Below the pieces are notes generated by a model. That model made no database searches, had not been told where the DNA came from, and saw only the letters and a list, made by a program, of their open reading frames with translations. From NCBI GenBank assembly GCA_029940375.1, contig JAPYUX010000003.1, positions 61,971 to 125,970 of the forward strand: a DNA stretch of 64,000 nt, in the 5' to 3' direction. Below, piece after piece: positions 52,621 to 63,046 of this stretch. Numbering within the stretch: position 1 is the first letter of the stretch; each line of letters starts with the position of its first letter. The position numbers were made by a program, and so were the translations under genes. Source of the DNA: Dehalococcoidia bacterium (GTDB lineage Bacteria; Chloroflexota; Dehalococcoidia; Lucifugimonadales; Lucifugimonadaceae).

Positions 52621-53511
52621 TTAAATTTGTATTTTAGTACTATTTATATAGGCCTTTAGTACGTTTTGTAGCAACATAGTAATTGTCATTGGCCCAACAC
52701 CGCCTGGAACAGGTGTAATTTTTGAAACATTTTCAATTATATTCTCAAAATCAGTATCTCCAATTAAACGATATCCATTTTTTTTGGACTTATCTTCTAC
52801 TCTATTCACACCCACATCTATAACAATGGGATTATTAGCTACCATATCTATTGTTAAAGTATTTGGTCTTCCTGTAGCCACAATTATTACATCGGCTTGT
52901 AGTGTGTGCTTTGATAGCTCTTTAGTTTTAGAGTGGCAAACAGTTACTGTTGCATTCCCCATTTCGGATTTCGATGATAAAAGAAGAGCTAAAGGTGTTC
53001 CTACTAATTTACTTCTACCTATAATTACTATATTTGAGCCATCTGTTTGAAAATTAATTTCTGACAACATTTTTTGTACCCCCAATGGAGTTGCAGGAAC
53101 AAATCTAGGTGTACCTGCTGCTAAAAGACCGAGGTTTTCAGTAGTAAGTCCATCAACATCTTTATGTGGAACAATGGATTGAATTATGATATCTTCATTA
53201 ATATTTTCTGGAAGAGGTAATTGTACAATGACTCCATTTACACTTGAATCCTTATTTAATTTTTGAAGTACTATTTGTAGTTCTTTTTCAGAGACATTTT
53301 TATCGTATTTGTAAATTAAACAATTAATACCTGCTTTTAAACATGCCCTTTCTTTTCCTCTTACATAAGAGAGAGAAGCAGGGTTTTCTCCAACAAGTAC
53401 AACAACCAAAGTGGGAGCATCTTTGTGTTTTTTTTGAATGATTTCAATTTCAGATTTAATTTTCAACTGAATATCTGCACTTAATTTTTTTCCGTCAATT
53501 AATTTTGAAAT
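52621..53511 (-). CDS. folD: Methylene-THF dehydrogenase/cyclohydrolase, probable AUU start
   Basis: Bifunctional folate enzyme interconverting 5,10-methylene-, methenyl- and 10-formyl-THF. Motifs: VGENPASLSYVRGKERAC (usually VG.dpaS..Yv..K), GVIVQLPLP, DVDGLTTENLG, FVPATPLGV, VIIGRSKLVGTPLALLL, and PVPGGVGPMTITMLL. The conserved N-terminal strand and helix (SKLIDGKKLSADIQ) lie upstream of the first TTG (53466), after an in-frame TAA at 53515-53517, with no ATG, GTG, TTG or CTG between. ATT at 53511 sits seven bases after AAAGGA (53519-53524) and gives 296 aa, the family length. Confidence 0.9.
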   Translation of the reverse strand: MSKLIDGKKLSADIQLKIKSEIEIIQKKHKDAPTLVVVLVGENPASLSYVRGKERACLKAGINCLIYKYDKNVSEKELQIVLQKLNKDSSVNGVIVQLPLPENINEDIIIQSIVPHKDVDGLTTENLGLLAAGTPRFVPATPLGVQKMLSEINFQTDGSNIVIIGRSKLVGTPLALLLSSKSEMGNATVTVCHSKTKELSKHTLQADVIIVATGRPNTLTIDMVANNPIVIDVGVNRVEDKSKKNGYRLIGDTDFENIIENVSKITPVPGGVGPMTITMLLQNVLKAYINSTKIQI

Positions 53512-55465: not shown

Positions 55466-56930
55466 TACGAACATATACAAACGATAAATAAACGGCTGTT
55501 AATAAAGTTAGTATTGAAAAAACAAATGATCCTATGAGAATTTCTTTGAAGACTTCTAATCCTGCAAAGTTTATTTCTTGATTTATTTTTGTTTGTATAG
55601 TCGGATCAAGAGAAAAAACTTGAATCCCTGTCACTAAATCTGCAAATCTTGCAGTTCCAATAGTCGTCATCAAAGACAATCCAAAAATCATTCCTAACAT
55701 TCTTGATAGGGAAATCATTGAAGAAGTTATTCCTCTAATTTTTTCGTTAATCGAAAAAAGTCCAATATTATGGATTGGAACTATAAAAAGACCATAACCA
55801 AGACCTATTATATAGAAAATTATATTCAATTCATTTGTAGGCGTAGAAATATTTTCTGAGTAAAGAAATATACCTGCAGAAGTTAAGCAACTTGCCAATA
55901 TTAAAGTAAATGCTGCACTGAATCTATTTGTCAAAATACCTATAATTGATCCTATTCCTATAAAAGCAGTTAATTTCAATAAAGATAAACCTATAACCAT
56001 AGTGTCTAGTTGATAAAGAGTTGAAGCAGACAGAGGTATTGTAACCATAATAATAATCAAACTAGAACCTATTAATAAATGAGTAATAAAAGCCCAAACA
56101 AACGTTGGATATCTAAATAATTCTTCAGGGATCAAATCTTGCTTTAACTTTGTTAATCTGTAAAACACAGTTATAACTAAAATTAATAAAATACTTATTA
56201 AAACAATTTGTCCTAGATCAAGAACTTTAAACTCTGAAATAATAATTGTAGAAACAATCAAAATAAGTGAAAATAAAATTGTATCAATTAGTTTGATCTT
56301 CATGGAATGCTTATTACTTTTGGGCATATACATAATCATGACTATCATTAATAACGAAAGTGGAATATTTATATAAAAAGCACCTGGCCAGTTCCATATT
56401 TTTAGTATAAGACTTCCCCATAAGGGTCCAATCACCCCCCCTGCTTCAGCAGATGCTCCTATTAATCCAAAACCATATATCCAATATTTTTTTTCTAGAA
56501 TTATTGAAACTGTAGCTATAGAAATTGGAACAATTGCTCCTCCACCCATAGCTTGTAAAAATCTAAAAATTATTAACCAATTTAATTTCGAAGGAAAAAT
56601 ACTCATTTCTGGGATATTAACTGTTATTGCAACTAAAAAGGAACCCATAGAAAAAAACAATAATGAACTAATCAATGTAGTTCTGTAACCATATTTATCA
56701 CAAATTTTTCCTGCTATAGGCATGACAATAGTAAATCCCAATAAATATGAAGTGATGGTCCAAGAGACTTTATTTAATTCTCCAACGGCTATTCCAAGAT
56801 CTACTGTCATGCTTGGAAGTAAAGTAACTATGACTGTCTGATCATCTGCTGCAATAAATACAGAAAAACACAATATAAATATATAGAAAATTTTTTTATT
56901 TGTACTTATTTGATTAATGGTTCTTTCCAT
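55449..56930 (-). CDS. DHA2-type 14-helix MFS exporter, P55-like
   Basis: 493 aa with about 14 membrane segments, EmrB/QacA architecture. The N-terminus ends helix 1 as FIAADDQTVIVTLLPSMTVDLG; loop 2-3 GKICDKYGYRTTL; helix 5 region GASAEAGGVIGPLWGSLIL. Its ATG lies within the last codons of an LprG/LppX-like lipoprotein (25-base overlap). In mycobacteria the same pair, lprG and Rv1410c (P55), moves triacylglycerol or glycolipids across the cell envelope; a similar role is a hypothesis here. A multidrug exporter is the alternative. Confidence 0.85.
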   Translation of the reverse strand: MERTINQISTNKKIFYIFILCFSVFIAADDQTVIVTLLPSMTVDLGIAVGELNKVSWTITSYLLGFTIVMPIAGKICDKYGYRTTLISSLLFFSMGSFLVAITVNIPEMSIFPSKLNWLIIFRFLQAMGGGAIVPISIATVSIILEKKYWIYGFGLIGASAEAGGVIGPLWGSLILKIWNWPGAFYINIPLSLLMIVMIMYMPKSNKHSMKIKLIDTILFSLILIVSTIIISEFKVLDLGQIVLISILLILVITVFYRLTKLKQDLIPEELFRYPTFVWAFITHLLIGSSLIIIMVTIPLSASTLYQLDTMVIGLSLLKLTAFIGIGSIIGILTNRFSAAFTLILASCLTSAGIFLYSENISTPTNELNIIFYIIGLGYGLFIVPIHNIGLFSINEKIRGITSSMISLSRMLGMIFGLSLMTTIGTARFADLVTGIQVFSLDPTIQTKINQEINFAGLEVFKEILIGSFVFSILTLLTAVYLSFVYVRIKKSS

Positions 56931-57667
56931 TCTATAGCCTTATCCCAATTGTAAAATTTTATTGTTCTAACAGTATCTAGTGTGTCTTTTGGTTGTACCT
57001 CACCTATAATATTTACCTTGCGAATTTCACCATTTGGTGAAATTAATAATTCAATTTTTACAGATTTGTCTGGAATAATCATTTCTCCTACAAGAGATTT
57101 TAGATCGTTTGAAATTATAGTAGCTGAAATATTATATGAATTATCATCGTAAGATTTTATTTCACTAGATTTAATTTTTGTTATTATATCCACTATTATT
57201 TGTATTGGATTTACTTCTTTGAATGGATTGTCAGAATTTGGGATCTCTCCCCATTTATTAGAAATTGGATTTGTAATCCAAAATTTTTCATCAAAAGTTA
57301 AATATGATAATTTTAGGAGAAAATCATTCGATATTATTTCAGCATTGATTAATATTTTATTTGGTTTTTGTATTTTTCCTTTTGCTTTACTAATATTCAA
57401 ATTCCCTGGAAGAAGGGTATAACCATTACTGTGTGTCAAAGTGAATTCAAAGGTTTTTGCTTGATTTACAAAGATTTTAGAAATGTTGATAATTTCTTCG
57501 GAAGAGTAAGTAACCTTACTTTGAGAATTACAACCAATCATAAGAATTACAAATAAGCTAATCCAAAGCAAAGTATTTTTTTGAATCAGTATCTTTCCAA
57601 AATTTAATATAATGTTTACATTTGATTTTATAATTCTTATTTTATGCCTCTCTTTCGAAAATATCAC
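56906..57667 (-). CDS. LprG/LppX-like lipoprotein
   Basis: Secreted lipoprotein with signal region NTLLWISLFVILMIGC (lipobox MIGC). The mature part matches the LppX_LprAFG pattern: QAKTFEFTLTHSNG, LNISKAKGKIQKPNKILINAEI, KFWITNPISNKWGEIPN and repeated beta strands forming a lipid-holding half-barrel. The frame opens at GTG 57667, which leaves a 45-residue pre-Cys region. ATT at 57584-57586, six bases after TTGGAAAG, would give a normal 18-residue signal (MQKNTLL...C). Directly coupled to the 14-helix MFS exporter. Confidence 0.75.
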   Translation of the reverse strand: MIFSKERHKIRIIKSNVNIILNFGKILIQKNTLLWISLFVILMIGCNSQSKVTYSSEEIINISKIFVNQAKTFEFTLTHSNGYTLLPGNLNISKAKGKIQKPNKILINAEIISNDFLLKLSYLTFDEKFWITNPISNKWGEIPNSDNPFKEVNPIQIIVDIITKIKSSEIKSYDDNSYNISATIISNDLKSLVGEMIIPDKSVKIELLISPNGEIRKVNIIGEVQPKDTLDTVRTIKFYNWDKAIEWKEPLIK

Positions 57668-57803
57668 TATCTTATTTAAATATAATTTTTTTATAAATAA
57701 ACTAGATTATTTAAGATTTTATAACATTTTTAGAATCTGTTTGTTCTGATAATTTAGTAAAAGATCTCTCTATACTTAAATAAAAAAAATGATTATTTTC
57801 TAG

Positions 57804-57809
57804 TATAAT
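57804..57809 (+). promoter_or_regulatory. -10 element of the riboswitch transcript
   Basis: Perfect TATAAT. The expected start, near 57815, coincides with the 5' side of the TPP aptamer. No clear -35 is seen (TAAAAA at 57781 is 17 bases upstream and poor). Confidence 0.5.
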
Positions 57810-57814
57810 GTAAT

Positions 57815-57900
57815 ATATCTTGGGGAGCTTTACAGCTGAGAGGGTAAAATTCCGACCCATCAAACCTGAACTAGATAATTCTAGCGGAGGGAAAAAATAG
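57815..57900 (+). ncRNA. TPP riboswitch (THI element)
   Basis: All conserved blocks are present in order: GGGGAGC (57822-57828), CTGAGAGGG (57836-57844), GACCC (57854-57858), ACCTGA (57864-57869), a CTAG...CTAG stem (57871-57884), and GCGGAGGGA (57884-57892). It binds thiamine diphosphate and lowers expression of the transporter that follows. No terminator hairpin lies between aptamer and gene. The GGAGGG at 57886-57891 is inside the aptamer and is also the only Shine-Dalgarno sequence, so ligand binding can hide it directly. Confidence 0.96.
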
Positions 57901-58658
57901 ATAAGAATATATCAAAAAATATTTTACTTGAAAACGTATCTTTCAAATTTTCTGAAACTTGGCTAATAAGGAACTTGTCGTTTAATTTTGAAGAAAATAA
58001 AACTACAACAATCTTAGGTCACAGTGGCTGTGGCAAAAGCACTCTATTAAAATTAATATCAGGCATTATAGATCCTAATGAAGGTACCATAACCGTTGAA
58101 AACACATCCGAAAGACTTGGTAAAATAGCATATATGCAACAAAGGGACTTACTTTTCAATTGGCTAACTGTGAAAGAAAATGCAATTTTACCATTGAGAA
58201 TTATGGGAACGTACAAAGATTTCTCTGACTCTGATGTTTTACAAAAAGCAAAAGTTTTGGGGATTGAAAATATATTAGACTATTATCCACAGCAATTATC
58301 AGGAGGGATGAAACAAAGAGTTGCTTTTCTTAGGACAATTTTACAAGACTCTGATTTTATTTTACTTGATGAACCATTCGCTTCATTGGATGCTATTAGA
58401 AGATTAGAATTATACAATTGGATTGAGAATATTAAAGAGAAAATAAACAAGTCTTTTATACTAGTAACTCATGATATAGAAGAAGCAATTTATTTGTCAG
58501 ACATTGTAATTATTATGCTTCCTGGTTCAAATAATTTCATACATGTTAAAAACATTACGATTCCCCATCCCCGCAAGAATGCAATAATAACTAGTGAAAA
58601 GTTTGTTAAATATAAAAAACAATTATTGGAAGAGTTACAAAATGTTAAAAATTATTAA
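57897..58658 (+). CDS. ABC transporter ATPase for thiamine precursor uptake (ThiZ-like), non-canonical start
   Basis: SsuB/TauB/ThiZ-type ATPase: Walker A GHSGCGKST (about 41-49), Q-loop AYMQQRDLLFNWL, signature LSGGMKQR, Walker B FILLDEPFASLD, H-loop LVTHD. The conserved first strand and A-loop (ILLENVSFKFSETWLIRN) lie upstream of the first possible TTG (57975), but after an in-frame TAG at 57882-57884 and with no ATG, GTG, TTG or CTG between. ATA at 57897 lies five bases after GGAGGG and is the best-placed codon; ATT at 57921 is another candidate. Following genes are its permease and binding protein. Confidence 0.9.
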   Translation: MDKNISKNILLENVSFKFSETWLIRNLSFNFEENKTTTILGHSGCGKSTLLKLISGIIDPNEGTITVENTSERLGKIAYMQQRDLLFNWLTVKENAILPLRIMGTYKDFSDSDVLQKAKVLGIENILDYYPQQLSGGMKQRVAFLRTILQDSDFILLDEPFASLDAIRRLELYNWIENIKEKINKSFILVTHDIEEAIYLSDIVIIMLPGSNNFIHVKNITIPHPRKNAIITSEKFVKYKKQLLEELQNVKNY

Positions 58659-59418
58659 CAAATTATTTAATTATTTTTTAGAATGGTACATGGCCATAAT
58701 AATTTTTTTGATTTTAATTGTATTTTGGCAACTATTATCATATTTCAAATTGATTGAACCTTGGCTTTTACCTTCTCCAATAGATATCATAAAAGAACTT
58801 ATAAATTCCAAGAAATTTATGTTTTATCACACAGGTGTAACTGCAATAGAAGTAATTTCAGGTTTCTCATTAGCCATTTTGTTGGGATCTATTTTTGGTT
58901 TAATGATGAATTTATCTAAAGTTTTACAAAAATCATTATTACCATATATAATTGCTTCACAGGTAATCCCCATATTCGCTCTAGCTCCAATTTTAATTGT
59001 TTGGTTTGGAGCAGGATTTATTTCCAAAATTATAGTTGTTTTCCTTATTTCATTTTTCCCGATTGTTATTGGAGTGTTTGATGGTTTAAAAAACTATGAT
59101 ACTGACATGGAAAATCTCTTGAAAACAATGGGTGCAAATAAAATACAAATATATTTAAAATTAAGAATAAAATTAGCTTTACCATCATTATTTTCAGGAA
59201 TTAAGGTTTCTTCTGTTAGTTCAGTTATAGGAGCAGTTGTAGCAGAATGGATTGGATCAAAGGCTGGTTTAGGCTGGATTATGAAAGTTTCAGGTCCACT
59301 TTTTCAAACAGATAGAGTTTTTGCTTCGATTTTGCTTTTATCAATATTTGCATCTATCTTATTCTATGTTGTTAAGCTTATAGAAATTAATTTATCTACA
59401 ATAAATAAAGGTGTGTGA
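58642..59418 (+). CDS. ABC transporter permease, ThiX-like
   Basis: Six-segment permease of the SsuC/TauC/ThiX group, 258 aa. The EAA loop is MENLLKTMGANKIQIYLKLRIKLALPSLFSGIK; early helices contain FWQLLSYFKLIEPWLLPSPIDIIKEL. ATG at 58642 follows GGAAGAG and overlaps the ATPase stop by 17 bases; an upstream frame start at 58594 lies inside the ATPase gene. Together with the TPP riboswitch it is assigned to import of a thiamine pyrimidine precursor. Confidence 0.92.
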   Translation: MLKIINKLFNYFLEWYMAIIIFLILIVFWQLLSYFKLIEPWLLPSPIDIIKELINSKKFMFYHTGVTAIEVISGFSLAILLGSIFGLMMNLSKVLQKSLLPYIIASQVIPIFALAPILIVWFGAGFISKIIVVFLISFFPIVIGVFDGLKNYDTDMENLLKTMGANKIQIYLKLRIKLALPSLFSGIKVSSVSSVIGAVVAEWIGSKAGLGWIMKVSGPLFQTDRVFASILLLSIFASILFYVVKLIEINLSTINKGV

Positions 59419-59419
59419 C

Positions 59420-60379
59420 ATGAAAATTATTATAATTTTATTATCTATTTTTATTATATTTTTCGGCTGTGAAAATAATAATAAAATTTCTTTAGCATTG
59501 GATTGGTATCCGAATTCTAATCATGCAGGTATTTATTCTGCTTTAGAAGAAGGTTACTTTGACGAAGAAAATTTAAATATAGAGATTTATACACCATCGG
59601 ATCCTACTGCGATAATTGTATCAGTTGCTTCTGGAAGAGATGAATTTGGATTATCTTATGCTCCTGATATTTTACAAGCGCAGTCTGTTGGACTAGAAAT
59701 AGTTTCTGTTTTGAGTATAGCTCAACATCCTTTAAACTCAATTATGACTCTGAGAGAAAGAAAAATAAATTCACCCAAAGATCTAAAAGGATTAACAATT
59801 GGATATCCAGGAATACCTTCGAATAAAGCAATGTTAGAAACGTTACTTAATTCAGAAGGATTAACAATCGATGATGTAGAAATATTGGACGTAGGTTTTG
59901 AATTAGTTAGAGCTTTAATATCTGGATCTGTCGATGCAATAATTGGTGCTTATTGGACTCATGAATCAATCGTCATGGAATTGCAAGGATTTGAAATTGA
60001 CGTTATGAGATTAGAAGAATGGGGAGTGCCTGATTATTACGAATTAGTACTAATCGTTAATAAAGATTTCCTTGATAATAATGATTATGTGGTTGAGAAA
60101 ATGATTTCAGCTTTATCACAAGGTTACCAGTATGCAACAGATCATCCACAAGACTCTATTAATTCAATCATTAAAATTGCAGGTAAAGAAATAGTAGAGG
60201 AAGATGTGGAACAAAAAGGTATAAAATTACTTATACCGATATGGAATGATAGTACTCAGTTCGGTTATCAAGATTTAAATAAATGGGAAGAAACATATAA
60301 TTGGATGAAAAAAAATCATTTTCTTGAAAATGATTTTAATATAAAAGATTTTATCTACACAAAATATTCAAATCAGTAG
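59420..60379 (+). CDS. Thiamine-precursor-binding lipoprotein, ThiY/NMT1-like
   Basis: 319 aa. Signal peptide with lipobox FFGC, so membrane-anchored. The NMT1/THI5-like fold: ALDWYPNSNHAGIYSALEEGYFDEENLNIEI, SGRDEFGLSYAPDILQAQ, LKGLTIGYPGIPSNKAM, LISGSVDAIIGAYWTHESI and WGVPDYYELVLIVNKDFL. This pattern fits the ThiY group, which binds formylaminopyrimidine or hydroxymethylpyrimidine. It begins one base after the permease stop. ThiD at 62237 could phosphorylate the imported pyrimidine. Confidence 0.92.
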   Translation: MKIIIILLSIFIIFFGCENNNKISLALDWYPNSNHAGIYSALEEGYFDEENLNIEIYTPSDPTAIIVSVASGRDEFGLSYAPDILQAQSVGLEIVSVLSIAQHPLNSIMTLRERKINSPKDLKGLTIGYPGIPSNKAMLETLLNSEGLTIDDVEILDVGFELVRALISGSVDAIIGAYWTHESIVMELQGFEIDVMRLEEWGVPDYYELVLIVNKDFLDNNDYVVEKMISALSQGYQYATDHPQDSINSIIKIAGKEIVEEDVEQKGIKLLIPIWNDSTQFGYQDLNKWEETYNWMKKNHFLENDFNIKDFIYTKYSNQ

Positions 60380-62236: not shown

Positions 62237-63046
62237 ATGTTTATGAAACCTGACGGAGAAATTTTACCTATATGCTTAACTATTGCTGGCTCGGATTCAG
62301 GAGGTGGAGCTGGCATTCAAGCTGATTTGAAAACTTTTGCTTCAATGGATTGTTACGGTGTGTCAGTTGTAACTTCAGTAACTGCTCAAAATACAAAAGG
62401 GGTGGATGATATACATGTGATACCAACCCTTACTATTTTAAACCAATTAAAATCTATTACGAGCGATATGAAATTTAGAGCTGTAAAAACAGGAATGATT
62501 CCTGAAAAATCAATTGTAGAATCGATTGTTGATAATATTTCTTATGTCTCCAATTTGAAATTAGTCGTAGATCCAGTTATAGTATCAACTTCAGGTCATA
62601 AGTTAATATCTGATGAGGCTATAAATACAATAAGATCTAAATTATTTCCCATTGCCAAAATCATCACCCCTAATTTACCTGAAGCGGAAGTACTCATTTC
62701 AAAGAAAATTTTGAACAAAAGAGATGTAAAAGATGCGTGTAAATATTTAATTGATTTAGGCCCAGAATCAGTAGTCATAAAAGGTGGCCATTTTTTTGAT
62801 TCTAAGATTTCTGAAGATATTTTTTATGATGGACAAAATTTTGAATTTTTTTCTGAAAGGAGAATAGAAACAACTTCTACTCATGGTAGCGGATGTACAT
62901 TTTCTGCTGCGATAACCAGCATGTTGGCTAAAAATTATTCTATAGTTGATTCTGTTTCTTCAGCAAAAAAATATGTGACAAAGGCAATTGATCAAGCATA
63001 CAAAATAGGAGAGGGAAATGGTCCCTTGAATCATTTCTTTTCATAA
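62237..63046 (+). CDS. thiD: Hydroxymethylpyrimidine/phosphomethylpyrimidine kinase
   Basis: Phosphorylates HMP and HMP-P in thiamine synthesis and salvage. 269 aa, ribokinase-like. Motifs: IAGSDSGGGAGIQADLKTF, GVSVVTSVTAQNTKGV, VKTGMI, VVDPVIVSTSGHKLI, ITPNLPEAEVL, VIKGGHF, and the anion hole STHGSGCTFSAAIT. The start ATG at 62237 or 62243 are both possible. It probably acts on the pyrimidine brought in by the riboswitch-controlled transporter. Confidence 0.94.
   Translation: MFMKPDGEILPICLTIAGSDSGGGAGIQADLKTFASMDCYGVSVVTSVTAQNTKGVDDIHVIPTLTILNQLKSITSDMKFRAVKTGMIPEKSIVESIVDNISYVSNLKLVVDPVIVSTSGHKLISDEAINTIRSKLFPIAKIITPNLPEAEVLISKKILNKRDVKDACKYLIDLGPESVVIKGGHFFDSKISEDIFYDGQNFEFFSERRIETTSTHGSGCTFSAAITSMLAKNYSIVDSVSSAKKYVTKAIDQAYKIGEGNGPLNHFFS

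Follow-up and report, generated by a model that had tools for sequence, protein, structure and literature searches.

In the window, by which we mean the whole 64,000-nucleotide stretch of DNA analysed here, a thiZ-like gene most probably starts with a near-cognate codon and takes its Shine-Dalgarno sequence from the TPP aptamer that precedes it. With a probability of about 0.8, we read this as a direct-attenuation TPP riboswitch with an embedded Shine-Dalgarno sequence, joined in most of the genus to a near-cognate AUH (AUA, AUU or AUC) start codon. The source is a draft genome of 1.47 Mb; in the collection searched, the named genomes closest to it are MAGs of uncultured Chloroflexota (the ATPase shares 96% identity with PBER01000006.1 and 61% with JAACCT010000015.1). 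The comparison set comprised nine genomes of the genus (its own and G001-G008), all carrying the thiZ-like gene.

This gene encodes a 253-aa ABC transporter ATPase (57897..58658, + strand; Pfam ABC_tran, 7.2e-31) and is followed on the same strand by a thiX-like permease gene, whose ATG start overlaps the end of thiZ (58642..59418; BPD_transp_1, 3.7e-28), and by a gene for a thiY-like NMT1/THI5 substrate-binding protein (59420..60379; NMT1, 1.4e-68), while a thiD-like gene is located nearby, at 62237. An ABC ATPase, a permease and an NMT1/THI5-like binding protein, placed downstream of a TPP riboswitch, make up the composition expected of a ThiXYZ system. Judging by the TPP control and the type of binding protein, the operon presumably encodes a thiZXY-like transporter of a thiamine precursor. 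None of the NCBIfam equivalogs in the model library used reached its cut-off for the ATPase.

The TPP riboswitch aptamer (THI element, RF00059) was found by cmscan at 57811..57909 of the + strand, with 65.3 bits and E 1.5e-10 over the full model (1-105), i.e., above the curated gathering cut-off of 54.3 bits. Each of the nine genomes has exactly one TPP riboswitch, directly 5' of the thiZ-like gene. Comparison with the RF00059 structure indicated that helices P2-P5, including the ligand-binding core, are retained; TPP is the predicted ligand. The block GCGGAGGGA of the aptamer is invariant in all nine genomes, in all of which CUAGCGGAGGGA is also read upstream of the start column, and a position that is variable in aptamers elsewhere is G in every one of them, which creates GGAGG. 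In the window, the 3' block of the aptamer thus contains GGAGGG (57886..57891, + strand), a Shine-Dalgarno sequence matching the 16S rRNA 3' end of the genus (TGGATCACCTCCTT; CCUCC), and this end is canonical in eight of the nine genomes.

When the Rfam structure was mapped on the window, the 5' strand of P4 (CCU, 57865..57867, + strand) was found to pair with 57888-57890, which are the AGG of the Shine-Dalgarno sequence (C57865-G57890, C57866-G57889, and U57867-A57888). These three pairs are invariant in 12 aptamer sequences, and P4 is present in the minimum-energy folds of most leaders of the genus, being predicted to form even without the ligand. As the AGG is itself the 3' strand of P4, TPP could close the site directly. 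No terminator-like site or hairpin was found after the aptamer, and the gene follows it too closely to leave space for a separate expression platform. Such a ribosome-binding site within the aptamer core, without a separate platform or terminator, is the anatomy of direct translation attenuation, and both the location of this site and the lack of a platform had been proposed in the initial annotation.

Helix P1 is the weak element of this structure. Its 3' side (57893..57897, + strand), which reaches the first base of the start codon, is poorly paired in the genus, and in the aptamer alignment P1 is paired in 50% of cells vs. 73-100% in the other helices. Since the same bases serve as the spacer up to the start codon, demands of spacing and coding may have eroded P1, and this weakness could reduce the affinity for TPP. 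In the window's own sequence only, inspection by eye showed that 57813-57821 could pair with 57903-57912 as a longer, P1-like helix. A search of the leaders of the genus for another pairing of the Shine-Dalgarno sequence, conserved and formed without the ligand, found none; one candidate (CUCUCU:GAGGGA), possible in the window's own leader, was dropped, as it is impossible in G005 and others. Two further observations concern the region upstream. The sequence TAGTATAAT at 57800-57807, just 5' of the aptamer, resembles a -10 box, from which the mRNA would begin at the aptamer edge, and is absent from the consensus-scan list. Furthermore, the sister genus g5 (L145-L148) shows conservation of a UCUCCCUUGAUA-UACAA-like stretch upstream of its aptamer. 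This stretch is complementary to two aptamer segments, GGGGAG and AAGGGA, and its role may be that of an alternative pairing partner or of a promoter element.

The thiZ frame is closed upstream by an in-frame TAG inside P5 (57882..57884, + strand) and is open from there to the TAA at 58656-58658. Within it, no ATG, GTG or TTG precedes the TTG at 57975..57977, the TTG at 57928 being out of frame, which bears out the initial annotation. Moreover, none of the three frames has an ATG or GTG between the Shine-Dalgarno sequence and TTG 57975. The most likely start is AUA at 57897..57899 (+ strand), located five bases after GGAGGG (six after GGAGG) and chosen on the basis of its position across the nine genomes. 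AUA 57909 and AUU 57921 are less likely alternatives; the window and its near twin G005 are nearly identical here, so that conservation cannot separate the three codons. By length, MKKN of G004 aligns with ISKN at 57909, and AUA 57909 is 18 nt from the Shine-Dalgarno sequence. By itself, a run of 30 AT-rich codons without a start is not improbable by chance; the signal rises above chance because all nine genomes have stops in the aptamer that close the upstream frame, with an AUH, AUG or UUG codon 5-8 bases after GGAGG.

The codon found after GGAGG is ATA in the window and G005, ATT in G008, G006 and G007, ATA in G002 (spacing 5, with an adjacent ATA and ATC also possible), ATG in G003 and G004, and TTG in G001. 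The three relatives with a canonical codon at this place also keep the aptamer GGAGGG as their Shine-Dalgarno sequence, and none of the nine genomes has a separate one; the comparison supports the proposal that thiZ begins with AUA or AUU. A chance value of about 0.005 was obtained for the four AUH lineages together (local AUH frequency 0.14, two codons), which is a rough figure, the lineages being related. In the closest ATT pair, G008 and G006, eight of the 16 codons after the start are identical, seven differ synonymously and one non-synonymously, which marks the stretch after AUH as translated. The thiZ homologue of G002 (L009/L038) has an internal TGA just before its LSGG-like motif, due to either a pseudogene or a MAG error.

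These data bear on three other explanations of the missing start. Translation could begin at TTG 57975, the first canonical start of the frame, with AAGGA upstream, and yield a shortened ATPase; we consider this very improbable. The AAGGA is merely about two bases away from the TTG, the codons upstream are under purifying selection, and this TTG is not common to the homologues, in which the first canonical starts fall at codons 21, 29, 30, 53 and 56 of the open frames. In G007 and G002 they lie beyond Walker A and are thereby excluded as starts. In addition, with translation from AUA 57897 the matches to NCBIfam ABC ATPase profiles begin at residues 8-11, whereas with translation from TTG 57975 they begin only at about profile position 20; with about 19-25 profile positions deleted, the first strand of the ATPase fold would be cut off, and the TTG is best regarded as internal. 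Loss of an ATG through an assembly or sequencing error, for which the homopolymer-rich stretch (six A) and the MAG origin of the genomes could speak, is nearly excluded: the same sequence is present in the separately assembled near twin G005, four more genomes with different sequences have no canonical start here, and a one-base indel could not restore an ATG, since all three frames are free of ATG and GTG. Entry of ribosomes from an upstream ORF, by frameshifting or stop readthrough, is an extremely improbable route, although frames in other phases are open over short stretches of the aptamer, as every one of the nine genomes has stops in the aptamer that close the frame, a conserved upstream ORF was not seen, and sensing would be disturbed by ribosomes passing through the aptamer. 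No canonical codon precedes the conserved coding sequence, as is expected of a gene with a near-cognate start.

In the mechanism that we propose, a direct-attenuation TPP riboswitch would govern the thiZXY-like precursor transporter operon, with GCGGAGGGA serving twice, as an aptamer block and as the Shine-Dalgarno sequence. The ligand is held in the loop next to P4, so that the AGG, as the 3' strand of P4, would lie beside the TPP-binding internal loop. Binding of TPP would fix P4 and the three-way junction in place and thereby bar the 30S subunit; this occlusion is predicted from the mapped structure. Without TPP, the three-pair P4 would open and the strong GGAGG would recruit the ribosome, with initiation at AUH 5-8 bases downstream in most of the genus (at AUA 57897 in the window). 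The strong, fixed Shine-Dalgarno sequence plausibly compensates for the weak codon, which would nevertheless cap the output and may make thiZ sensitive to IF3, like infC.

It had also been proposed that the rare codon adds a second layer of control. The rare start itself is supported, and a dedicated layer is not, since the codon switches between sister species (ATA, ATT, ATG or TTG) and other genes of the genus use AUH too. In all nine genomes (L163-L171), infC has an AUA start, and many other genera of the family use AUA or AUC for this gene, which makes AUA initiation and its discrimination by IF3 plausible in this genus. For the folD-like gene at 52621-53511 (- strand), ATT is the sole plausible start (AAAGGAATAAAAC ATT TCA AAA); ATT is shared by G005 and G004, and four other members of the genus have ATG. 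The valS gene has ATT or ATC 6-7 nt behind GGAGG in G004 (L175-L178), G006 (L179-L185), G007 (L193/L212) and probably G002, and behind AGAGG in G008 (L192/L210); in G004, G006, G007 and G008, no canonical start precedes the conserved N-terminus. In the window's own genome and G005, an ATG stands two codons upstream of the same ATT. Homologues of the lipoprotein gene divergent from thiZ (56906-57667, - strand) have no canonical start in G002, G006 and G007, and probably also begin with AUH; in the window's own copy, a GTG is present, but an ATA preceded by AGAGAGG seems no worse a candidate.

According to a hand count in sampled stretches of the genomes, AUH was needed in about 20 of 878 gene instances of the genus vs. 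none of 226 in the sister low-GC genus g6 (Fisher p 0.02, with no correction for the relatedness of the genomes or for the choice of regions around thiZ and infC). Most of the many flags raised by the stop-to-stop screens were discarded by eye as shadow ORFs, as frameshifts, or as conserved leaders that precede an ordinary ATG.

The chances are about even that the near-cognate start drifts and is tolerated, the genus being relaxed in its start choice, and that it has no regulatory role beyond the riboswitch. The variation of thiZ starts among close species on the tree, the mixed folD and valS starts, and the excess of AUH over the sister genus all fit drift. On the other side, infC keeps AUA in all nine genomes, as expected under selected use, and so is the G that completes GGAGG kept at an otherwise variable aptamer position. 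Drift is compatible with the proposed anatomy and rivals only the second-layer reading. The rare start may thus be a habit of the genus rather than a purpose-built control, and the evidence favours tolerance with a possible tuning role. With the Shine-Dalgarno sequence fixed by ligand binding, the strength of the start codon is a free variable. We tentatively suggest, as a possibility short of an even chance, a genus with relaxed or expanded start choice (about 2% of sampled genes with AUA, AUU or AUC), in which thiZ responds to both TPP and IF3 and the start codon is the sole free dial.

In the proposed mechanism, a single short RNA would both sense vitamin B1 and hold protein synthesis to a low maximum. 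As gene callers and riboswitch surveys assume AUG, GUG or UUG, they overlook direct-attenuation riboswitches that have AUH starts. The genus may represent a bacterial lineage in which near-cognate initiation is unusually common, and its species, sampling AUA, AUU, UUG and AUG in one frame behind a Shine-Dalgarno sequence that cannot be tuned, being part of a ligand-binding RNA, provide a ready-made test series.

The embedded Shine-Dalgarno sequence is of an already known kind. In the 'direct' class of TPP riboswitches, as described by Barrick and Breaker (2007, PMC2258182), the conserved purine-rich 3' end of the aptamer replaces the ribosome-binding site and no expression platform is used, just as here. 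The same arrangement recurs in the sister genus g5, where the start is TTG in three genomes and ATG in a fourth; of the 13 directly fused genes of the two genera, only three begin with ATG. Other aptamer-start fusions in the wider order (e.g., L296 and L314) have ATG. A near-cognate start behind such a sequence appears to be undescribed: AUA or AUU is used here in most species, whereas near-cognate starts are unmentioned in the passages of PMC2258182 consulted, and a literature search of limited coverage found no riboswitches with AUU or non-canonical starts. With thiXYZ and other TPP-regulated precursor operons the locus shares the ATPase, the permease, the NMT1/THI5-like binding protein, the riboswitch and the nearby thiD, and it differs from them in the fusion of the riboswitch to the start site and in the near-cognate start. 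It resembles infC, which is autoregulated by IF3 through an AUU/AUA start and itself uses AUA in this genus, in having a near-cognate AUH behind a good Shine-Dalgarno sequence, although here a metabolite riboswitch is involved and the target is not IF3 but a transporter of a vitamin precursor. In Staphylococcus aureus, infC, ccpN and cvfC1 have AUA/AUU starts with extended Shine-Dalgarno sequences and an output of about 10-30% of that from AUG (PMC13009471). As in those genes, a strong Shine-Dalgarno sequence accompanies the weak start; unlike in them, a riboswitch is present and the codon is drifting rather than conserved.
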